Part shown: positions 22,936-64,000 of the stretch, piece after piece | Layout: each line of letters starts with the position of its first letter | How positions within the stretch are numbered: position 1 is the stretch's first letter | Source of the DNA: Flammeovirgaceae bacterium | GTDB taxonomy: Bacteria; Bacteroidota; Bacteroidia; Cytophagales; Cyclobacteriaceae | Direction of reading: 5' to 3' | Assembly (NCBI GenBank): GCA_015180985.1 | Contig: CP054185.1 | Coordinates: 1,295,001 to 1,359,000, forward strand | Length of the DNA stretch: 64,000 nt | Translations under genes and position numbers: made by a program | Notes under the pieces: generated by a model | The model's database searches: none | The model's input: the letters and a program-made list of their open reading frames with translations, nothing else | Told to the model about the DNA's origin: nothing

Positions 22936-23646
22936 ATGCAGGCAAACGGGTGTTCGGTGTTGAGTTTAATTTTTATGCTGGGTGTGTACAAGGCTGCCAT
23001 CTGTCAGGATTACAGCGCATTACGTAATGCTATGGTGGATAATCAACTGAAAGCACGAGGTATCAGATCAGCGGCTGTGCTTGCTGCCATGCGCAAGGTG
23101 GAACGCCACCGGTTTGTTCCTGAAAATATTTCTGTCCAGGCATATAACGACAGCGCCTTGCCCATAGGCAAGGGGCAAACCATATCGCAGCCGTACATTG
23201 TTGCGTTCATGACGGAAGTACTAAATGTAAAGCCAACCGATAAAGTACTTGAAATCGGCACAGGCTCCGGATACCAGGCGGCCATCCTTGCCGAATTATG
23301 CAAGGAAGTATACACCATTGAACTGGAGCCGGTGCTGGGCAACCGTGCCGACAGCCTGTTGAGGCAGTTGAATTACACTAATATTTTTGTACGCATCGGT
23401 GATGGCTACCAGGGCTGGCCGGAGGCGGCTCCGTTTGATGCCATTATTGTTACCTGTTCGCCCAGCCACATTCCTAAGCCATTGGAAGAACAACTCAGAG
23501 AAGGCGGGCGGATGATTATTCCGGTAGGAGAAGTTTCAGTACAGGAACTTGTTTTGGTAACAAAAGAAAACGGCAAACTGAAGCGCCAAAACCGCCTGCC
23601 TGTGTTGTTTGTGCCCATGCGTGATAAACGGGGTAAGCGGTACTGA
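22936..23646 (+). CDS. pcm: Protein-L-isoaspartate O-methyltransferase, apparently exported
   Basis: A 236-residue SAM-dependent enzyme that methylates isoaspartate in damaged proteins to start their repair. It shows the family segments MVDNQLKARGI, RHRFVPE, GQTISQPYIVAFMT, the SAM loop EIGTGSGYQAAI and IVTCSPSHIPKPLEEQL. The first 23 residues (MQANGCSVLSLIFMLGVYKA, then AICQ) look like a signal peptide, so the mature enzyme may be periplasmic. That is odd for an enzyme needing SAM, but it recurs in annotated bacterial Pcm proteins. A later Met at the start of the catalytic domain (MVDNQL) would be too short at its N-terminus. The gene is divergent from the SAM-riboswitch operon. Confidence 0.92.
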   Translation: MQANGCSVLSLIFMLGVYKAAICQDYSALRNAMVDNQLKARGIRSAAVLAAMRKVERHRFVPENISVQAYNDSALPIGKGQTISQPYIVAFMTEVLNVKPTDKVLEIGTGSGYQAAILAELCKEVYTIELEPVLGNRADSLLRQLNYTNIFVRIGDGYQGWPEAAPFDAIIVTCSPSHIPKPLEEQLREGGRMIIPVGEVSVQELVLVTKENGKLKRQNRLPVLFVPMRDKRGKRY

Positions 23647-23732: not shown

Positions 23733-24314
23733 ATGAAAAATGTGTTAACCGGCTTTGCGGCAGGTGTGCTCCTGTTGCTGGCCATTGCTTACTTTGTTAA
23801 ACCCACCTGGCTGTGTGGCTCATCAGCCGCTGATGACAGCCGGAAACCGCTTATTTCGCTGGCCGATTTGGCTATGGAGGTAAGCACACGGGAAGGCAAT
23901 AATCTGGAAACCCTCGTAAAACTTGATAAACAGTTTTACAAAGCTTTGCTGCAGGGGAATAAGGTTGGCGGTATGTACTTTTATTCGCGCCATGGTTCTT
24001 GTTGTCCGTGCAGCACAGGGGGTACGAAATGTTGCTCCTGCTCTCAAGGTTCAGGCTTTGGCGTAATGAATAACTCAACCAATCAGGCTTATTTAGTCAA
24101 TCAGGCTCTTTATAAATTTGCATCAAATTCAAATCAAAAACCTTTTGATAAGATTCCCCTTGAGGTAAAAGTGATAGATGATGTAAAAATTTTCCTGATT
24201 CCTGAATCGGTTGCAGACGGTAATTATACGGCCAGGTTTGAAGGAAATATTAATATTGAACTGGATATTGCAGTCCATTCGGATAAGACATTCGAAGTGA
24301 TCGCCATCCGGTAG
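23733..24314 (+). CDS. Membrane-anchored protein with a double CCxC motif, unknown function
   Basis: I do not recognise this 193-residue protein. It starts with a membrane helix or uncleaved signal (about 5-22) followed by Cys28. A polar region leads to a striking symmetrical cluster at residues 90-103: CCPC, six residues, CCSC, which gives six cysteines in fourteen positions with HG just before. The C-terminal half (about 135-193) looks like a small beta domain. The cluster could bind Fe-S, Zn or Cu, or form disulfides in the periplasm. The gene ends 24 bases before the TPR-CHAT gene on the same strand, so the two are probably co-expressed and may act together. Confidence 0.75.
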   Translation: MKNVLTGFAAGVLLLLAIAYFVKPTWLCGSSAADDSRKPLISLADLAMEVSTREGNNLETLVKLDKQFYKALLQGNKVGGMYFYSRHGSCCPCSTGGTKCCSCSQGSGFGVMNNSTNQAYLVNQALYKFASNSNQKPFDKIPLEVKVIDDVKIFLIPESVADGNYTARFEGNINIELDIAVHSDKTFEVIAIR

Positions 24315-24338
24315 TACGAATTAAAATACGGTCAACCT

Positions 24339-27191
24339 ATGAAGTTTCGGCCCGTTTGGCTTGTGTTTGTTATTCCCTCATTTTTTGCACAGGCCCAGCA
24401 TTCCGAAATCAGCAAGTTGCTGGATTCTGCCATGTTGGTGTGGTACAGCGATTTTGACAGAACCCAGCAACTTGTTTTAAAAGCCGAGAAATTTTTTACT
24501 GACAGTACTGCAACTGTCAATGCTGATCTGATTGAACTTTACAAGCTTCGTATTCAATCCTGCCTGGCCTTTTCCCGGCTACAACAGATGAATCAATACA
24601 TTGTTGAGCTTGAAAAGCTCCTGATAAAGAATAAACAACACTTTAGCAGGGAGGAGTTAAGCAAAATGAAATTGGATATGGAATTTCCAAGGGCTCAGTA
24701 TCATCTTGCTATTGGAGAAAATAAGAGGGCCCTGGAGTCTTTTTTGAATATAAAAGCTGAATTGATGAAAGTGGCGCAGACACCTGAGGTATGTTATGAA
24801 ATTTATTTACAATCAAACTACATTTCAGCCATACACCGTGATCTTGGTGAATTTGAAGCCTCGGTGAATGAGCAGCTTTCCAGTATACCCTACCTGATTT
24901 GTTCAAACCGACCGGGCTTTCCGGTTGTTTACAGAAATCTAGCGCTTACCTATTTAGAGAAACGTGACTTTAATCAGACCGGTAAATACCTGAAACTTTC
25001 GGAAGACTCGTTAAAAAGAGCGCTTCAATTGTGGCCTGAAGAACATGCCCGGGTGGCCATCAGTTTATATGAAACACAGGCCGGCTATTACGAACGAATC
25101 GGGCATCCGGACAGCGCCATGATGGCCATGATAAAGGCGCTGTCGCTCATACACCTTCGCTCCGTAAATAATCTGTTTAAGGGCAGAATATACTACCGGC
25201 TTGGTGTTCTGAATCTGCGTCTTGGAAATCTGAACGAGGCAAACAAATACATTGAGCAGGCTGAGGCAAATTTCAAACCACTGGAAGGGGACCCGTTGCA
25301 TGTGGCCCGTACATTTTTGCTTAAAGCCGAATGGTCATCCCAATCGGGCAACTATGCAAAAGCCCTTGCCTATTGTGAGAAAGCAGAAATGGAGTTGGCG
25401 GCCCGTGTGGAGAAAGGCGCTGCCGGCAACTCCATCATCGTTGGAACAATTTCAAAAAAGGAACTCTTCAATATCCTGCATAAAAAAACGCAAGTGCTTT
25501 TGCGCCTTTTTGAACAGTCGGCTAACCGGGCTCATCTTATCCATGCACTGAACACAAACCAAATGGCTGTAGCCCTGTTCGACAGCACCGCCAATGAATT
25601 CAGTCTTGACAAAGACAAGATTATTCTATCAGAGTTAAGTTACAGCGCTTTTGAATATGGTATCCGCATCGCCCACCGGCTGTATCGCCTAACCGGTGAC
25701 AGGCAGTACCTTGAAAAATGCTTTTGGTTTATGGATAAAAGCAAAGGTATTTTGCTGCTTGAAAACCTCCGCCTGGTAAACCGCTTTTCCGGTATTGAGC
25801 CGGAATGGCTCCAGCGCGAAAAGGAATTGAAAGCGGAAATGCTATGGGCTGAACAGGAAATATTTAGAACAGAATCAGCCCGGAACCAATCTGATAAATT
25901 GCAATCAGTGCGCGAGCGCTATGCTGCGATAAAGAGCGATTATAGCGTGCTTCTCAGCCAGATAAGAAGCAAGGCGGCCGACTTCTACCGGCTTCGCTTC
26001 GATCACTCGGTTGTACCCATGCAAACTATTCAGCAGCAACTACTAAAGCCCGGTGAAGTATTGATTGAATTTTTTACGGGCGATTCGATACTGGCGGTTG
26101 CCGGGTTCACCAGGTCAAAAATGTATATGCAGGTAAAACCCTTGCCGACAGAATTCACCAATCTGATAAATAAGCTGCAGTCAGCTTTAACAAGAAGTTC
26201 AGCCGCCAGTTTTACTAATCCTGCCCGCGAACTGTATGACCTTTTGTTGAATGATTGTTTGGCCGAATTGGGCAGCGATATGAAATCATTAATCATCATC
26301 CCGGATGGATTGTTGGGGTATATTCCTTTTGAAGTGCTGATGTCATCTGACCAACAAAATAGTTTTTTGAACAACAACTATGCGGTTTATTATGCGCACT
26401 CGGCAACGTACCTTCATGAGCAACTGCAGCGTAAGCTTCCTGATCCAAAATATTTCTTTGCCGGTTTTGTGGCCTCAGGTAACCCGAAGCTGGGCGTTCA
26501 ACTTGCTACACGCAATGAAGCGTTATCGGTGTTGAAAGGAGCCGAGCATGAAGTAGCTTCTATTGCAAAATTGATTCGTTCAAAATTCAAAATTTTCAAC
26601 CCGGCCGGTAAAACCGATTTCATCAAACATGCACCTGATTATAGAATATTGCACCTGGCTATGCATGCGGTAGTAAACGATGCAAACCCCATGATGTCGG
26701 AGATGATTTTTACTGTAGCAGATTCTGCTGAGCAATCGTTGACGGCCGGTGAATTATATGGGATGCAGTTAAATTCAACCTTGGCGGTACTCAGCGCGTG
26801 TAATACCGGCATGGGGCAATTACACCGGGGCGAGGGTATTATGAGTTTTTCAAGAGGTTTTGCGTACGCGGGTGTTCCTTCAGCCGTAATCAGTTTATGG
26901 AAAGTGCCTGATGAAGCAACTTCGAAGATCATGGTAAACTTTTACCGGTATTTAAAAAAAGGCGAGACGAAGGACAGGGCGCTTCAATTGGCGCGCCAGG
27001 AGTTTGTACGCGATAACCCGGAATATGCGCATCCTTACTTTTGGTCAGGCTTTATTTTAACCGGCACAACCAATCCGATTGAATTCCCTTCAGCCTTTCG
27101 ATGGTACTGGTACGTTTTGGCTTTGCTGGTGGTGATTGCCGGTGGCTATGTATTCCGAAACCGCCTTATGCCAGGCCGTAACCTTTCATAA
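24339..27191 (+). CDS. TPR-CHAT putative cysteine protease, exported and membrane-anchored
   Basis: A 950-residue protein. A signal peptide (about 1-19) is followed by TPR-like helical repeats (to about 470), a coiled linker, and a C-terminal CHAT (caspase HetF associated with TPRs) domain (about 590-905). The catalytic dyad is visible: His776 in HLAMHAVV and Cys821 in LSACNTGMG, followed by the conserved GEGIMSFSRGFAYAGVPSAV region. A hydrophobic helix (about 925-943) with a basic tail ends the protein. The signal peptide plus C-terminal anchor would put the protease in the periplasm, unlike the cytosolic CHAT proteases of defence systems. It follows the double-CCxC protein by 24 bases and overlaps convergent dinB by 26 bases. 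Confidence 0.9.
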   Translation: MKFRPVWLVFVIPSFFAQAQHSEISKLLDSAMLVWYSDFDRTQQLVLKAEKFFTDSTATVNADLIELYKLRIQSCLAFSRLQQMNQYIVELEKLLIKNKQHFSREELSKMKLDMEFPRAQYHLAIGENKRALESFLNIKAELMKVAQTPEVCYEIYLQSNYISAIHRDLGEFEASVNEQLSSIPYLICSNRPGFPVVYRNLALTYLEKRDFNQTGKYLKLSEDSLKRALQLWPEEHARVAISLYETQAGYYERIGHPDSAMMAMIKALSLIHLRSVNNLFKGRIYYRLGVLNLRLGNLNEANKYIEQAEANFKPLEGDPLHVARTFLLKAEWSSQSGNYAKALAYCEKAEMELAARVEKGAAGNSIIVGTISKKELFNILHKKTQVLLRLFEQSANRAHLIHALNTNQMAVALFDSTANEFSLDKDKIILSELSYSAFEYGIRIAHRLYRLTGDRQYLEKCFWFMDKSKGILLLENLRLVNRFSGIEPEWLQREKELKAEMLWAEQEIFRTESARNQSDKLQSVRERYAAIKSDYSVLLSQIRSKAADFYRLRFDHSVVPMQTIQQQLLKPGEVLIEFFTGDSILAVAGFTRSKMYMQVKPLPTEFTNLINKLQSALTRSSAASFTNPARELYDLLLNDCLAELGSDMKSLIIIPDGLLGYIPFEVLMSSDQQNSFLNNNYAVYYAHSATYLHEQLQRKLPDPKYFFAGFVASGNPKLGVQLATRNEALSVLKGAEHEVASIAKLIRSKFKIFNPAGKTDFIKHAPDYRILHLAMHAVVNDANPMMSEMIFTVADSAEQSLTAGELYGMQLNSTLAVLSACNTGMGQLHRGEGIMSFSRGFAYAGVPSAVISLWKVPDEATSKIMVNFYRYLKKGETKDRALQLARQEFVRDNPEYAHPYFWSGFILTGTTNPIEFPSAFRWYWYVLALLVVIAGGYVFRNRLMPGRNLS

Positions 27192-27621
27192 TCAGCATAA
27201 TCTGTCCGATGTGATACACATCGTGATGGATTATGCCGTGAAGCATGGTAAAGTACTTGAACGGCCTGCCCGGCACCTTTTGCCACAATAAATCATCCGG
27301 AGTTTGCTGTAGTGTCTCTATCAGAATTAGTTGACTTTCTTCCAGCAACCGAATAGCCTCATTCCAGTTTTTTTGTGTTGGAAAGTTGTCTTCATCAGAA
27401 AGTTCAAAGTGTTCATCTCCCTGCAATTTTTTAATCACGTAATTTCGCCAGGCAGCCATGTGGCGAATAAGCTCTTCAACAGAATGGCTGTTGCCTACGC
27501 GTAAAGTTGCATGTTCAGGTTTAAGTTTTGCGAGCATTTCTTTTACGGCCGGGCCATGCCAGGCATTTTTCTCGTAAGTGTGCGAAACAATGTCGATGAT
27601 TTTCTGAACGTCTGTTTTCAT
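27166..27621 (-). CDS. DinB/YfiT-like metal-dependent protein
   Basis: A 151-residue four-helix protein of the DinB superfamily. Its three-His metal site is plausible: the first His in ELIRHMAAWR (about residue 53) and two more in HGIIHHDVYHIGQ (about 130-140). Members act as thiol-dependent transferases or hydrolases (bacillithiol or mycothiol type), but most have no known substrate. It starts 1 base after the fabG stop, so it is co-transcribed with fabG. Its 3' end overlaps the end of the convergent TPR-CHAT gene by 26 bases. The length is normal for the family. Confidence 0.87.
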   Translation of the reverse strand: MKTDVQKIIDIVSHTYEKNAWHGPAVKEMLAKLKPEHATLRVGNSHSVEELIRHMAAWRNYVIKKLQGDEHFELSDEDNFPTQKNWNEAIRLLEESQLILIETLQQTPDDLLWQKVPGRPFKYFTMLHGIIHHDVYHIGQIMLIMKGYGLA

Positions 27622-58928: not shown

Positions 58929-61013
58929 ATGAGTCCAGCCAAAACAATTGTTGCCTTCATTTTATTGCTGAGTGCAATCAGCGTGTATGGCCAGCCGAAA
59001 ATCATTATCAGCGAGAATTTTTCTGCCAATCACCGGGGGTGGTACACTTATACCGGTAACGGCAATTCTATTTTGGTTAAGGATGGTGTATATGAATTTG
59101 ATACACCCGAGGGGGGGTGGATTTCGTACATCTATCCGGCCATTTTTCAGGATAAGGATTTTTATGCCGAGGCAAAGTTTACCCAGTTGAACGGTAATGA
59201 TAACAATGGCTTTGGATTTATCTGGGGTTATGATGCCGACAGCAAACAACTCAACAACTTTGTTATCTCCCTTAACGGATATACCAAAGTGTGGGCATCG
59301 GACGAGACCCGTACCGATGCGAAAGACTGGAAGAAGATTGACGGTATTAGCGGCTTGGGCAAAACCAACCTGCTGCGCATGGAGCAACGAAACGGTCAGT
59401 TAACTTTTTATGTAAACGGTAAGGAGGTATTCCGCATGAAGTCGCTGCCCTGGTATGGCAAAGGCTTTGGCTTTGTTACCTATACCAAAATGAAAATGGC
59501 CGTTGACGACTTTGTGCTGGCCGGGTACACCCGGATTAGCCTGCCCGATAAACTTACTTCCGGATTGGTAAAAGAGAACCTGGGCCCCGAGGTGAACACA
59601 CGTTACAATGAAGTTACGCCTAATATTACAGTGGATGGTAAAATGATTTTGTTCACCCGTAAAAACAGTCCGGATAACCTGGGCGGAACAGAAGATGCTT
59701 CTGATGTGTGGTACAGCACATCACCGGACGGCATCACGTGGAGTAAAAGCAAAAACATGCAACCTCCCGTTAACTCCGAAAAGGTGAACAACATTACGGC
59801 CATCGGGCAGGATAACAACACCATTTTACTGGCTACCGGCAACGACTTTGAATTGTTTGAACGTACTGCAAGCGGGTGGCGCAACAAGGGAACTATCGGT
59901 GTGTATTACGAGAATGAACATAGATACTTTGAGGCAACCCAATCGGCTGACGGTAAAGCCATTTTATTTGCCGCTAAAAACAGAAAGAGCTTGTTTTATA
60001 AAGACGGCAAAGAAGAAAAAGACATTTTCGTAATGCTCAAAGATGCCCAGGGCAAGTGGAGTGAACCAATTAACCTGGGCGTTTCCATTAACACCAGCGG
60101 TAATGAGGCCTCACCGTTTCTCGCTGCCGATGGGAAGACATTATACTTCGCCTCGGATGGTCATCCGGGCTATGGCGACATGGATATTTTTATGAGCAAA
60201 CGGCTCGATGATACATGGACCCGCTGGAGCACCCCGGTAAACCTCGGGCCCGAAATCAATTCGTTTGGGTTTGATGCCTACTACACCCTGCCGGCTTCAG
60301 GCGATTATGCGTACATGTGCACCAATGCCGGTGGGTTTGGCGAATCGGATATCGTGCGCATCAAACTACCGGAAGTCATCCGCCCTGATCCGGTGGTACT
60401 GGTGGTCGGGAAGGTACTCAACGCAAAAACAAAAAAACCGGTGGAAGCCGGCATTGTGTTTGAAAACCTGGTAACCCGCAAAGAAACCGGAGAGGCCATC
60501 TCCGATCCGGCAACCGGTGATTACCGGGTGGCGCTTCCCTATGGCGTTAACTACGGATTGCACGCAAAGGCAAAAGGATACCTGTCGGTAAACGAAAACC
60601 TGGAGCTGGTGAATGTGCGCACCTATACCGAAATGCAGAAGGACTTGTACCTGGTACCCATTGAAATCGGTGAAGCCATTCAGTTAAACAACGTGTTCTT
60701 CGAACAGGGCCGCCCGCTGCTCAAACCCGAATCGTACCCCGAACTCGACAGGCTGGTGCAGATTTTAAAAGATAATCCTACCATGGAAATTGAACTGAGC
60801 GGGCATACCGACAATGTGGGCAACCCGAATGCATTACTTACTCTTTCACAGGAGCGGGTAACTACCGTAAAAAATTACCTGGTAAAAAACGGCATTCACG
60901 GTTCACGCATTACCGGCAAAGGCTATGGCGCTTCGCAGCCGCTGGTGAAGAACGATACCGAAGAGCACCGCAGAATGAACCGGAGGGTGGAGTTTAAGAT
61001 TACGAAAAAGTGA
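58929..61013 (+). CDS. OmpA family protein with LamG-like and PD40 domains
   Basis: A 694-residue exported protein. A signal peptide (about 1-22) is followed by a LamG/concanavalin-like domain (about 25-200) and PD40 propeller repeats (about 215-480, for example SPFLAADGKTLYFASDG). A carboxypeptidase-regulatory domain (about 490-580) and an OmpA peptidoglycan-binding domain (about 590-694, with GHTDNVGNPNALLTLSQERV and MNRRVEF) complete it. The layout resembles proteins such as PorE and other type IX accessory proteins, but lacks their TPR part. Likely it tethers the outer membrane to the wall and binds a surface ligand. It lies 9 bases after the SDR gene, although no metabolic link is evident. 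Confidence 0.9.
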   Translation: MSPAKTIVAFILLLSAISVYGQPKIIISENFSANHRGWYTYTGNGNSILVKDGVYEFDTPEGGWISYIYPAIFQDKDFYAEAKFTQLNGNDNNGFGFIWGYDADSKQLNNFVISLNGYTKVWASDETRTDAKDWKKIDGISGLGKTNLLRMEQRNGQLTFYVNGKEVFRMKSLPWYGKGFGFVTYTKMKMAVDDFVLAGYTRISLPDKLTSGLVKENLGPEVNTRYNEVTPNITVDGKMILFTRKNSPDNLGGTEDASDVWYSTSPDGITWSKSKNMQPPVNSEKVNNITAIGQDNNTILLATGNDFELFERTASGWRNKGTIGVYYENEHRYFEATQSADGKAILFAAKNRKSLFYKDGKEEKDIFVMLKDAQGKWSEPINLGVSINTSGNEASPFLAADGKTLYFASDGHPGYGDMDIFMSKRLDDTWTRWSTPVNLGPEINSFGFDAYYTLPASGDYAYMCTNAGGFGESDIVRIKLPEVIRPDPVVLVVGKVLNAKTKKPVEAGIVFENLVTRKETGEAISDPATGDYRVALPYGVNYGLHAKAKGYLSVNENLELVNVRTYTEMQKDLYLVPIEIGEAIQLNNVFFEQGRPLLKPESYPELDRLVQILKDNPTMEIELSGHTDNVGNPNALLTLSQERVTTVKNYLVKNGIHGSRITGKGYGASQPLVKNDTEEHRRMNRRVEFKITKK

Positions 61014-61026
61014 ATACTTTTGGAGA

Positions 61027-61227
61027 ATGGTAGCTGAACTTAAAAAGGTACTGAAGCAAGTTGAAAACCTGCCGCGTAAAAGGCAGCGTGAACTGGCGAC
61101 TTTGATTTTGGATGAGATTAAGTGGGATAAGACTTTTGGGGATACACAAGGTGAATTAGAACAACTGGCCGCAGAAGCGGTTGGTGAGTATAAAGCCCGA
61201 AAAACAAAGCCTTTAAAAATTGGTTAA
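61027..61227 (+). CDS. Putative antitoxin of a type II TA pair
   Basis: A 66-residue protein, mostly helical, acidic in the middle and basic at both ends (KKVLKQVENLPRKRQRE and YKARKTKPLKIG). It has no clear HTH, which is common among RelE-partner antitoxins that wrap the toxin with an extended helix. The stop codon is directly followed by the toxin's start codon (TAA then GTG), the standard TA order. It is called an antitoxin mainly because of its neighbour. Confidence 0.75.
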   Translation: MVAELKKVLKQVENLPRKRQRELATLILDEIKWDKTFGDTQGELEQLAAEAVGEYKARKTKPLKIG

Positions 61228-61497
61228 GTGCGCTCTGTCACTACTGAAAGATTTCGTAAAGCGTATGAAAACTTACCTTCCACTGTCAAGTTAAAAGCAA
61301 GGGAGGCTTATAAGCGATGGATTAGGAACCCATACCACCCTTCGCTGAATTTCAAACAGATTCATAAAACCAAATCGATATACGCTGTCAGGGTAGGGAA
61401 TTCTTATCGCGCTTTGGGTGTAAAAAACAAGCATACCATGATATGGTTTTGGATTGGTTCTCACGAAGAATACAACAACCTCACTAGTCAACTGTAA
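61228..61497 (+). CDS. RelE/ParE-family toxin
   Basis: An 89-residue RelE/ParE-fold toxin. It starts with GTG directly after the antitoxin stop. It has the family outline of two helices (FRKAYENLPSTVKLKAREAYKRW) followed by strands (LNFKQIHKTKSIYAVRVGNSYRALG) and the C-terminal block MIWFWIGSHEEYNNL. The conserved Arg (RVGNSYRAL) and the C-terminal His-Glu-Tyr fit mRNA interferases of this group. It ends one base before the start of the aldehyde dehydrogenase gene, so the pair sits inside the same transcription unit. Confidence 0.85.
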   Translation: MRSVTTERFRKAYENLPSTVKLKAREAYKRWIRNPYHPSLNFKQIHKTKSIYAVRVGNSYRALGVKNKHTMIWFWIGSHEEYNNLTSQL

Positions 61498-61498
61498 C

Positions 61499-62941
61499 AT
61501 GCAAAAAATTCTGAATTACATTAATGGCGAGTTGGTTGAACCGGTCTCCGGTAAATACCTTGACAACTATAACCCGGCCGAGGGCAAGGTGTACAGCCTG
61601 GTACCTGATTCAGCTACAGCAGATGTAAATAATGCCGTTGAAGCAGCACAGCAATCGTTCGAAGCCTGGGCCACCATGCCCGTTGAAAAGCGCTCGGCCA
61701 CTCTGCAGAAAATTGCCGATTTGATTGACCGCGACCTGGATAAACTGGCGCTGGCCGAAAGTATTGATCAGGGCAAGCCGGTTAAACTGGCCAAAGCCGT
61801 GGACATTCCGCGCGCGTCATCCAATATGCGCTTCTTTGCCACGGGCGCCATTCATTTTGCTTCCGAAGCGCATGTTACCGGAAACGAAGCCGTAAACTAC
61901 ACGTTGCGCACGCCCGTTGGTGTGGCCGGATGTATTTCGCCATGGAACCTGCCGTTGTACCTGTTTACCTGGAAAATTGCACCGGCCCTGGCGGCAGGCT
62001 GCACGGTAGTGGCCAAACCTTCGGAACTTACCCCGATGACAGCTTATTTATTCTCGCAACTTTGCATGGAGGCCGGTTTGCCGAAAGGCGTACTCAACAT
62101 TGTGCATGGCCTTGGTCCCAAAGCCGGGCAGGCTATTATTGAGCATCCGGGTGTTCCGGCTATTTCGTTTACGGGTGGAACAGTTACCGGTAAAAAGATT
62201 GCTGCAACGGCCGCGCCCATGTTTAAAAAGCTTTCGCTGGAACTGGGCGGAAAAAATCCCAATATTGTTTTTGCCGATTGCAGTTTCGAACAGGCTGTGC
62301 GCACGTCTGTTCAGTCGTCCTTCTTCAACCAGGGCGAGATTTGTTTGTGCGGCTCCCGCATTTTTGTTGAACGCAGTTTGTACGATAGGTTCGTTACGGA
62401 ATTTGTGAAGCTGACCCAAGAATTGGTGGTGGGCGATCCGCTGGAAGAAATGACACGAGTAGGCGCGCTTGTTTCAGAGGCACACATGAACAAGGTGCTT
62501 TCGTACATTGAACTGGCAAAAGAAGAAGGCGGAAAAATTGTAACCGGAGGAAAACAGGTAAAACTCAGTGGTCACTGTGCCAACGGATACTTTGTTGAAC
62601 CTACAGTGATTACCGGGTTGAATGAACAATGCCGCACCAACCAGGAAGAAATTTTCGGACCGATAGTTACCATTATGCCGTTCAATACCGAGGATGAAGT
62701 TATAGGATATGCCAACAGCACACCCTATGGGTTATCGGCCACCCTCTGGACGGAAAACCTGACACAGGCCCACCGCGTGGCAGCACGGGTAAAAAGCGGC
62801 ATCATCTGGATAAACTGCTGGCTCTTCCGCGACCTGCGTACGCCCTTTGGCGGCATGAAGCAAAGCGGGGTAGGGCGCGAGGGCGGCTGGGAAGCACTGC
62901 GCTTTTTTACCGAGGCGAAGAATGTGTGTATTAAGCTATAA
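61499..62941 (+). CDS. Aldehyde dehydrogenase, 2-aminomuconate semialdehyde dehydrogenase-like
   Basis: A 480-residue NAD-dependent aldehyde dehydrogenase of the ALDH8/hydroxymuconic-semialdehyde type. Catalytic Glu248 (LSLELGGKNPN) and Cys282 (GEICLCGS) are present at the standard 34-residue spacing, and the oxyanion Asn lies in SPWNLPLYL. In kynurenine degradation such an enzyme oxidises 2-aminomuconate 6-semialdehyde, so it would act after HaaO and a decarboxylase (ACMSD) that is not in this window. The start is ATG 61499 (MQKILNYINGELVEP), one base after the toxin stop. It overlaps the end of the convergent ATPase gene by 11 bases. Confidence 0.92.
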   Translation: MQKILNYINGELVEPVSGKYLDNYNPAEGKVYSLVPDSATADVNNAVEAAQQSFEAWATMPVEKRSATLQKIADLIDRDLDKLALAESIDQGKPVKLAKAVDIPRASSNMRFFATGAIHFASEAHVTGNEAVNYTLRTPVGVAGCISPWNLPLYLFTWKIAPALAAGCTVVAKPSELTPMTAYLFSQLCMEAGLPKGVLNIVHGLGPKAGQAIIEHPGVPAISFTGGTVTGKKIAATAAPMFKKLSLELGGKNPNIVFADCSFEQAVRTSVQSSFFNQGEICLCGSRIFVERSLYDRFVTEFVKLTQELVVGDPLEEMTRVGALVSEAHMNKVLSYIELAKEEGGKIVTGGKQVKLSGHCANGYFVEPTVITGLNEQCRTNQEEIFGPIVTIMPFNTEDEVIGYANSTPYGLSATLWTENLTQAHRVAARVKSGIIWINCWLFRDLRTPFGGMKQSGVGREGGWEALRFFTEAKNVCIKL

Positions 62942-64000
62942 CGGACAGATCCCTCCAGTTTGTTACCACGAACGATTGCCAGTTGTACGATTCGTCACCG
63001 CCATAGACAAGGATTTTCTTCGACTTCGGGTTTAGTTTGTTCCAAAAGCGTAAACCTTTAAAATGCTCATCGTTTGCTGTTAAGCCCGATTTAATTTCTA
63101 CAGCAACAGGTTCGGGATTCGATTCAATAATTACATCAAGTTCATGGCCGCTTACATCACGCCAGTAAAATAAGTTGCTCCGCAAGCCTTGGTTAAACCG
63201 GCTCTTTAATAATTCATTAATAATGAAATTTTCGAAAAGCGCCCCACGCATGGCGTGGTACAACAGGGCATCGGCTGACTCTATTCCAAGCAGGTAGCTG
63301 GCCAGTCCGGTATCGTAAAAGTAAAGTTTGGGTGATTTAACGATTCTTTTAGAGTAGTTTTTATAATAGGGTTGCAGGAGGTGCACAATGTAACTGGCTT
63401 GCATAACCGATAACCACGATTGGGCTGTTTTGTGATCAATGCCGCACTCCATGGCCAGGTTGCTCAGGTTTACCTGTTGCCCGATGCGTGCAGCACATAA
63501 GAACATAAACCGTTGAAATGTTGCAAGATCGGTAATGTTTTTAATCTGCCTGACATCCCGTTCAATGTACGTGCGCACATAGGCAGGAAACCAGAATTTT
63601 TCATCAACACCTTCATAGGTAACAGGCGGATAACCGCCCCGGTAAATCAGATTATTTAGTTCTATCGGATACTGATGGATTGCTTTAAGTTCGGTATAAC
63701 TGAAAGGGAGTAAATCAAGGTAACCAATTCGTCCGGCAAGACTTTGTGTTATTTTTTCCAGCATAAGAAAATTATTCGAGCCCGACAGGATAAATTTACC
63801 CCGCTCGCTACTTTCGTCCAGTACCTGCTGCAGGTAGTTAAATAATTCAGGTACCCGTTGTGCCTCGTCAATAATTGCACCGGCATTGTAGTGGTGCAAA
63901 AACCCCCTTGGATCATCCGCGGCCCGTTGTTGAATTTCCGGATTCTCCAACGAGACGTAACGTTTAGTGGAAAACACCGCTTTTGCCAACGTGGATTTGC
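62931..64000 (-). CDS. AAA ATPase with DUF4143, 5' end outside window
   Basis: Only the C-terminal part is present; the gene runs off the right edge. The last bases still encode the end of the Walker A motif (KST, then LAKAV). Walker B is AIIDEAQRVPEL, sensor-like residues sit in FILSGSNNFLMLE, and a C-terminal DUF4143 domain (about the last 200 residues) ends in VAVEIKSG and FWNKLNP. These proteins are common, often multi-copy ATPases of unknown role, sometimes linked with mobile regions. The overlap with the convergent aldehyde dehydrogenase gene is 11 bases. The start codon is not in the window. Confidence 0.88.
   Translation of the reverse strand, partial: KSTLAKAVFSTKRYVSLENPEIQQRAADDPRGFLHHYNAGAIIDEAQRVPELFNYLQQVLDESSERGKFILSGSNNFLMLEKITQSLAGRIGYLDLLPFSYTELKAIHQYPIELNNLIYRGGYPPVTYEGVDEKFWFPAYVRTYIERDVRQIKNITDLATFQRFMFLCAARIGQQVNLSNLAMECGIDHKTAQSWLSVMQASYIVHLLQPYYKNYSKRIVKSPKLYFYDTGLASYLLGIESADALLYHAMRGALFENFIINELLKSRFNQGLRSNLFYWRDVSGHELDVIIESNPEPVAVEIKSGLTANDEHFKGLRFWNKLNPKSKKILVYGGDESYNWQSFVVTNWRDLSVIA

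Follow-up and report, generated by a model that had tools for sequence, protein, structure and literature searches.

A Predicted Envelope TPR-CHAT Protease and Its Cysteine-Cluster Partner in Cyclobacteriaceae, with a Possible Link to ECF Sigma and TPR Anti-Sigma Factors

The stretch of DNA analyzed here, referred to as the window, comprises 64,000 nucleotides of a Flammeovirgaceae bacterium (contig CP054185.1, positions 1,295,001 to 1,359,000; family Cyclobacteriaceae). Our subject is a pair of genes on the same strand of the window, separated by 24 nt. The upstream gene encodes a small anchored protein with a dense cysteine cluster (the partner), and the downstream gene encodes a long protein with TPRs and a CHAT protease domain. 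Both genes are open in three genomes and look coding, with dN/dS values of 0.10-0.28 for the partner gene (three genome pairs) and 0.14 for the CHAT gene (one genome pair, dS being saturated in the other two). An initial annotation, drawn from the sequence alone, had described the two open reading frames (ORFs), their 24-base gap, the CCPC-x6-CCSC cluster at residues 90-103, a signal peptide, the residues H776 and C821 and a C-terminal helix, and the ORFs, Pfam and alignment bear out each of these features (Table 1).

Table 1. Positions of the features discussed; numbers refer to the window unless a genome coordinate is given.
Feature	Position	Strand	Basis
Anchored Cys-cluster partner protein, 193 aa	23733-24314	+	ORF list, alignment, low-confidence model
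CCPC-x6-CCSC cluster (CCPC-STGGTK-CCSC), residues 90-103	codons 24000-24041	+	sequence
TPR-CHAT protease, 950 aa, predicted type I membrane protein	24339-27191	+	ORF, Pfam, alignment
Signal peptide (predicted), about residues 1-20 of CHAT protein	24339-24398	+	sequence reading, crude hydropathy test
CHAT domain, residues 627-909	26217-27065	+	Pfam PF12770
H776 codon	26664-26666	+	within CHAT domain
C821 codon	26799-26801	+	within CHAT domain
C-terminal hydrophobic helix, about residues 922-938, then basic tail	27102-27152	+	alignment, hydropathy
ECF sigma factor, window's genome	G000:C1:2930047-2930634		TIGR02937
Transmembrane anti-sigma with predicted periplasmic TPR domain	G000:C1:2930655-2931410		
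Left flank, outside system: PCMT with predicted signal peptide	22936-23646	+	Pfam
Right flank, outside system: DinB-family protein, overlaps CHAT gene 3' end	27166-27621	-	Pfam

The CHAT assignment is firm, with a Pfam match at E 1.2e-60 and 205.9 bits against a curated cut-off of 24, and TPR_12 matches residues 283-349 of the same protein. H776 and C821, which we take to be the catalytic His/Cys dyad of CHAT, are invariant together with many surrounding residues in all four aligned CHATs of the clade that holds the pair. An N-terminal hydrophobic segment and a C-terminal helix are present in all three copies from the window's genus. The CHAT domain is thus predicted to lie outside the cytosol in a type I membrane pattern, in keeping with the earlier proposal of a protease facing the periplasm; the topology calls draw solely on hydropathy and charge. 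Comparison of the protein with Protein Data Bank (PDB) sequences gave no significant match (best E 0.98).

The partner has a hydrophobic helix at residues 2-21 with practically nothing N-terminal to it, as seen in a low-confidence structural model, and residues 141-190 are modeled as beta strands at about 70-80 pLDDT, a moderate confidence. The protein resembles little in the collections searched: its sole Pfam match has E 0.16, NCBIfam and PADLOC gave no match at E <= 1, and Foldseek with the model gave none at E <= 0.001. Nine matches to PDB sequences, the best an alcohol dehydrogenase at E 0.016, were judged to be chance driven by Cys. All six Cys are kept in the copy from genome G006 (64% identity over 177 aligned residues), and the pattern CxC-x3..12-CxC occurs in 4 of 1091 scanned ORFs, all four being partner proteins. 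For these two reasons the Cys pattern is not taken as chance. A raw three-frame CxC-CxC scan upstream of CHAT genes also matched three unrelated loci (L165, L166 and L214), and consequently only ORF-based matches were used.

Within the genus, sampled by 17 genomes including that of the window (G000), the pair behaves as a real unit, as the initial annotation had supposed. Among 99 related genomes searched for the partner, it turned up in 3, each belonging to this genus, and a CHAT protein at 52% identity or more occurs in the same three (G000, G003 and G006), adjacent to the partner in each. No orthologue of the partner or of the pair CHAT was found in the other 14 genus genomes. Some CHAT match exists in all 17, the next after the pair CHATs having 25-30% identity over long stretches. 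The relatives' copies, at L034 and L035, come from metagenome-assembled genomes (MAGs) of Cyclobacteriaceae and Cytophagales. The DNA of G000 and G003 (contig C22) is identical from about 15.0 kb (or slightly earlier) to 24079 of the window and again from about 60500 to 64000. Elsewhere the identity per 500 bases is roughly 75-91%, and the identical tracts reflect recent recombination or a chimeric assembly of a MAG. The first identical tract ends within the partner gene, 38 nt past the Cys cluster; because the DNA is identical there, the G003 copy gives no independent support for the cluster.

Wider searches added few relatives. The partner profile matched 35 of 390 genomes of the order at E <= 0.1, namely the window's own and 34 others attributed to chance, the best of them at 0.0017 and several interrupted by internal stops. 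In the class, 5 of 395 genomes matched at E <= 0.01 (its own and four more, best 4e-4), and no CHAT was recognized at the G753 locus, the sole class match whose locus was read. The CHAT profile matched 4 of 390 genomes of the order at E <= 1e-115 and 2 of 301 of the phylum at E <= 1e-110, the window's own included in both counts.

Among 245 family genomes, the best relative of the window CHAT outside the genus is in G137 (535 bits; the runner-up has 370), with 34% identity over 815 alignment columns. Neither ATG nor GTG occurs near the N-terminal end of its frame, and a TTG at L205:7792 gives a typical signal peptide, so that TTG is the only plausible start as far as the sequence allows us to infer; the G137 row in our alignment begins three residues late. 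Just 1 nt upstream of this TTG ends the gene for an anchored protein of 207 aa with LCPCPGNTGMCPCP (CPC-x6-CPC), in which counterparts of C91, P92, C93, C101 and C103 of the window partner are aligned. A search for the G137 partner in its own genus of three genomes returned itself and one chance match. The four pair CHATs form one clade with an SH-aLRT of 99 in a tree of 76 sequences, and also in one of 44 sequences from which L143 was omitted. Because the G137 CHAT, too, directly follows an anchored CPC-x6-CPC protein, the pair can be regarded as a conserved unit with a divergent copy in another genus.

The exported TPR-CHAT protein had been presented as a novelty, and here the wider family corrects the picture. 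CHAT occurs in 86 of 98 family genomes. We took the first listed CHAT gene per genome in 40 of these 86, skipping cut-off loci. An N-terminal hydrophobic segment was found by a crude test in 34 of the 40, and a C-terminal helix in 9; a tenth, L164, is doubtful. A coupled upstream secreted protein with GCSDAGFCTMGA is present at 11 of the 40 loci. In the tree of 76 sequences, a C-terminal-helix clade of 38 rows (SH-aLRT 97) includes the pair, and CHATs with the GCSDAG partner fall in a separate clade. G000 itself carries CHATs of both clades and one of a further clade (L111).

The genes around these CHATs point to a regulatory association. At 20 loci whose CHATs score highly, ECF (extracytoplasmic function) sigma factors and anti-sigma-like proteins recur as neighbors. 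The neighborhoods were scanned with models made from 7 sigma and 9 anti-sigma sequences, and an anti-sigma lay within 3 kb of 20 of 34 C-terminal-helix CHAT genes (30 loci), a set that includes loci picked for their likeness to the window CHAT. The L215 CHAT, at a hydropathy of 1.58 against a threshold of 1.6, was classed by hand as having the helix. The corresponding counts are 1 of 4 pair CHATs (the one in G137), 0 of 16 with the GCSDAG partner and 0 of 22 others. A sigma factor is nearby for 12 of the C-terminal-helix CHATs and for one each of the pair, GCSDAG-partner and other CHATs. With the seven seed loci removed, the anti-sigma count is 13 of 27 against 0 of 38 (p 1e-6, kinship ignored), and a comparison restricted to the loci taken one per genome gives 4 of 11 against 0 of 31 (p 0.003, kinship ignored). 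Eight aligned TPR anti-sigma-like proteins each have an N-terminal part of some 80-110 residues, a single hydrophobic helix and TPRs at the C-terminal end, the latter recognized by Pfam in four.

A profile of these eight anti-sigmas finds full-length matches in five genus genomes: G011 (189 bits), G003 (176), G000 (170), G006 (169) and G004 (75 and 66); the next genus match is partial, at 48 bits. The G000 protein has a hydrophobic helix starting at residue 91 and C-terminal TPRs (a predicted topology), and its sigma neighbor scores 47.1 bits with TIGR02937, where the NCBIfam cut-off is 42.9. A CHAT C-terminal helix was read in G000, G003, G006, G011 and both G004 genes beside the anti-sigma, and in no other frame read; the reading covered frames within reach of the CHAT search, and the G004 pair was judged by eye. 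The anti-sigma is therefore present in 5 of 5 genus genomes with a C-terminal-helix CHAT and in 0 of 12 others (p 1.6e-4, kinship ignored; the carriers represent about three lineages).

The arrangement of these genes suggests how the window's lineage may have come by its present state. In G137, the sigma, the anti-sigma, the CHAT and the partner all stand at one locus (L205). G011 has a sigma, an anti-sigma, a 156-aa gene and a CHAT at one site, and at the same site G000, G003 and G006 have the sigma and anti-sigma with the same following genes, which we take to be HNH-like and SmpB-like, and no CHAT. In all three genus genomes with the pair, the anti-sigma is unlinked to it. The G000 anti-sigma shares 64% identity with the G011 protein, 42% with the G137 protein and 23-32% with a further 13, including the two from G004. 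In the anti-sigma tree, G137 and G011 cluster with the three pair genomes at a support of 97. A four-gene module that was split in the window's lineage is the simplest reading. Upstream of the sigma gene, a block like GGTTACTT was seen by eye some 30-50 nt before the start in L262, L263, L264, L265 and L205, and it is possibly an autoregulated promoter.

A candidate cut site is found in the anti-sigma linker. At one alignment column outside the membrane, 26 of the 28 anti-sigmas linked to or co-occurring with a CHAT have Arg, followed by G in 11, S in 8, D, A and N in 2 each and T in 1. In the rest of the linker, up to where the TPRs begin, no column exceeds 23 of 28, and the median pairwise identity is 23%. 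Four of 45 anti-sigma matches fell outside 180-320 aa and were left out, and 3 duplicates were removed. Ten related non-TPR anti-sigmas are without the Arg and also without the region, which makes them a weak control. As aligners can gather Arg in linkers of variable length, the site is a prediction and not a proof.

Taken together, we propose a four-gene envelope signaling module, consisting of an ECF sigma factor, a TPR anti-sigma, the TPR-CHAT protease and the Cys partner, in which the CHAT protein cuts the anti-sigma; we put its probability at roughly one half. Sequence comparison supplies the gene pairing, the clades, the co-occurrence, the common sigma/anti-sigma site and the conserved Arg; topology, binding, cleavage, cut site, signal and any metal or redox role are what we would infer. 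The CxC...CxC cluster of the partner would adopt a state that depends on metal or disulfides, and by this means the partner would hold the signal or relay it to the TPR arm of the CHAT protease. On activation, the protease would cut the anti-sigma within the periplasmic linker next to the membrane, the cut probably falling behind the conserved Arg (Arg-Gly/Ser); the anti-sigma remnant would be destroyed, and the sigma factor would be freed. The Cys-cluster protein would thereby act as a sensor or adaptor and not as the main substrate. In a broader form, which we hold tentatively and with the odds somewhat against it, a Bacteroidota clade of membrane-tethered periplasmic TPR-CHATs would serve as site-1 proteases that cut transmembrane TPR anti-sigmas after the linker Arg and free ECF sigmas, the CxC-CxC protein conferring a metal or redox response on one branch, as a CRISPR-free envelope version of the Craspase logic.

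Several observations weigh against this proposal. In G000 the sigma and anti-sigma lie 1.6 Mb from the pair, and the Pfam match of that sigma is below the cut-off. Fourteen of the 34 C-terminal-helix CHATs have no anti-sigma within 3 kb, misses that are not firm because many loci extended just about 1 kb beyond the CHAT gene. The G011 CHAT is not close to the window CHAT and falls outside the pair clade on a long branch; a replacement, and not a simple move, is therefore possible. A common promoter word for the pair and sigma genes of G000, G006 and G137 was sought, and none was found beyond the shuffled expectation: the longest common upstream words have 8 letters in G000 and G137 (equalled in 55 and 113 of 300 shuffles), and the G006 upstream regions have no common word of 7 or more letters. 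Both G004 anti-sigmas lack the linker Arg and are its two exceptions. The window partner and the G137 protein are not significantly similar overall (blastp E 0.07; hhalign probability 4%), the signs of their homology being motif, size, anchor and position. Immediately upstream of the next-best CHATs, of which G212 has three and G028 and G177 have one each, there is no Cys-cluster ORF, and the partner therefore belongs to a small branch. The AlphaFold models, built from three-row alignments, are poor for the partner (mean pLDDT 58.6) and for the CHAT protein (mean 53.6, with residues 643-862 mostly below 50).

The initial annotation had named the Cys-rich neighbor as the obvious candidate substrate or a sensor. 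If the Cys-cluster protein were the substrate, held at the membrane, for instance, until cleavage releases or activates it, the sigma link would be secondary. Tight pairing in all four pair genomes speaks for such a reading, and bacterial gasdermin systems likewise couple a CHAT-type protease with an adjacent substrate. Conservation between G000 and G137 is, however, mainly that of the Cys cluster with no evident cut-site loop, and many CHAT genes of the same clade have an anti-sigma but no Cys partner. As to gasdermin itself, the partner yielded the lone weak Pfam match given above and nothing in NCBIfam, and the structural model is poor. We consider the substrate role unlikely; the conserved cluster would suit a sensor or adaptor better, and that half of the earlier suggestion is retained.

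It is also conceivable that the Cys protein keeps C821 reduced, or supplies or buffers metal, in an oxidizing periplasm, the pair being an envelope quality-control protease with no sigma role. CxC pairs suit thiol or metal chemistry, and the gene next to the pair codes for PCMT, a protein-repair enzyme that here has a predicted signal peptide. This PCMT gene, however, occurs elsewhere without the pair: PCMT and DinB genes adjoin each other in L102 and have one gene between them in L100 and L101, and PCMT was rejected as a member of the system since other genus members have it without the pair. Such a role would moreover not explain why the TPR anti-sigma co-occurs within the genus, and we doubt it. 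The patchy distribution would fit a lineage-specific accessory pair without regulated proteolysis, in which CHAT is a binding module or pseudo-enzyme, and experimental work on an exported CHAT protein was not found among the open-licence papers listed, judged by title and start of abstract. The invariance of H776, C821 and many neighbors in the four pair CHATs, and dN/dS well below 1 in both genes, make this very unlikely.

The closest parallel is Craspase (PMC10028731): there the TPR-CHAT protease Csx29 cuts Csx30, an inhibitor of an ECF-like sigma. The likeness is that a TPR-CHAT protease would be associated here, too, with an ECF-like sigma and with an inhibitor that is a protein of its own. 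Activation of Csx29 is by RNA, through Cas7-11 (PMC10028731), whereas the CHAT protein here has a signal peptide and a C-terminal helix, and the candidate inhibitor is a transmembrane TPR protein. PADLOC models of CRISPR proteins gave no match to the pair or to nine neighbors (17.5-33.9 kb of the window), and no Cas7-11 effector was thus found over that span. A sigma and a candidate inhibitor are linked to the CHAT gene in G137, and present in the same genome, unlinked, in G000. Unlike DegS, a PDZ-domain serine protease, the candidate here is a caspase-like cysteine protease with a TPR arm and a Cys-cluster partner. The likeness to RseA/DegS is that a membrane anti-sigma is cut, in that case under envelope stress, to free an ECF sigma, sigma E (PMC10028731), as we propose for the present module.

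Known CHAT proteases had all been called cytosolic, which omits HetF of Anabaena, a membrane-associated putative protease with CHAT and TPR domains (PMC8406250). HetF differs in having its CHAT domain N-terminal (aa 1-555), one predicted transmembrane segment and a role in heterocyst development and division, and the part of that source consulted mentions no sigma or Cys-cluster partner (PMC8406250). The anti-sigmas here resemble the Bacteroidota family of membrane anti-sigmas with a cognate sigma factor; with a length of about 250 aa, a single predicted helix and TPRs in the C-terminal part, they would leave little room for a second, outer-membrane domain. Among the open-licence papers listed, judged by title and start of abstract, we found neither a function for an exported CHAT protein nor an exported CHAT protease with an anti-sigma or Cys-cluster partner. 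The ECF review PMC8103513 does not mention a CHAT domain in the text searched, and CHAT domains appear in other architectures only in the portion consulted of PMC10907252. What would be new here is a CHAT protease acting on a sigma inhibitor and relocated to the envelope, plus a Cys-cluster accessory. If true, a large group of orphan caspase-like proteases would gain a testable role in envelope signaling, together with a likely substrate and a predicted site of cleavage, and the cleavage of a sigma inhibitor by Craspase would appear, as this suggests, as one case of a broader CHAT/anti-sigma theme.

Other CHAT neighborhoods deserve mention. The G846 CHAT is preceded by a lipoprotein with PCP-x5-C, and the C-terminal-helix CHATs of G533 and G846 follow lipoprotein-like proteins with PCP-x4/5-C. 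Lipoprotein-like proteins that share this motif lie before such CHATs at L219:3999-4892 and L268:6073-6732; in L219 the unit is duplicated. PCP?x3-7C occurs 9 times among 550 ORFs with an N-terminal hydrophobic segment (of 1350 ORFs in total), 6 times directly before a C-terminal-helix CHAT and 3 times elsewhere; the motif was chosen after seeing the sequences, and G000 and G003 are not independent, which makes this a lead and not a test. A secreted protein of roughly 310-320 aa starting QGCSDAGFCTMGAMKPDQ (L096:5436-6389 and homologues) is coupled to a different exported CHAT clade at 11 of 40 loci, the genus core CHAT in this context being at G000:C1:2826389-2829091, and its L096 copy has one Pfam match below the cut-off (E 0.013) and none in NCBIfam. 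Additionally, G000 has another CHAT, at L111:5202-8532 (G000:C1:1687202-1690532), that begins like a signal peptide and follows a secreted protein of 169 aa. The PCMT protein beside the pair matches part of the PADLOC mad2 model (E 8.9e-25), presumably through a common methyltransferase domain. Lastly, a single 58-kb contig, G038:C190, holds at least 9 CHAT matches.

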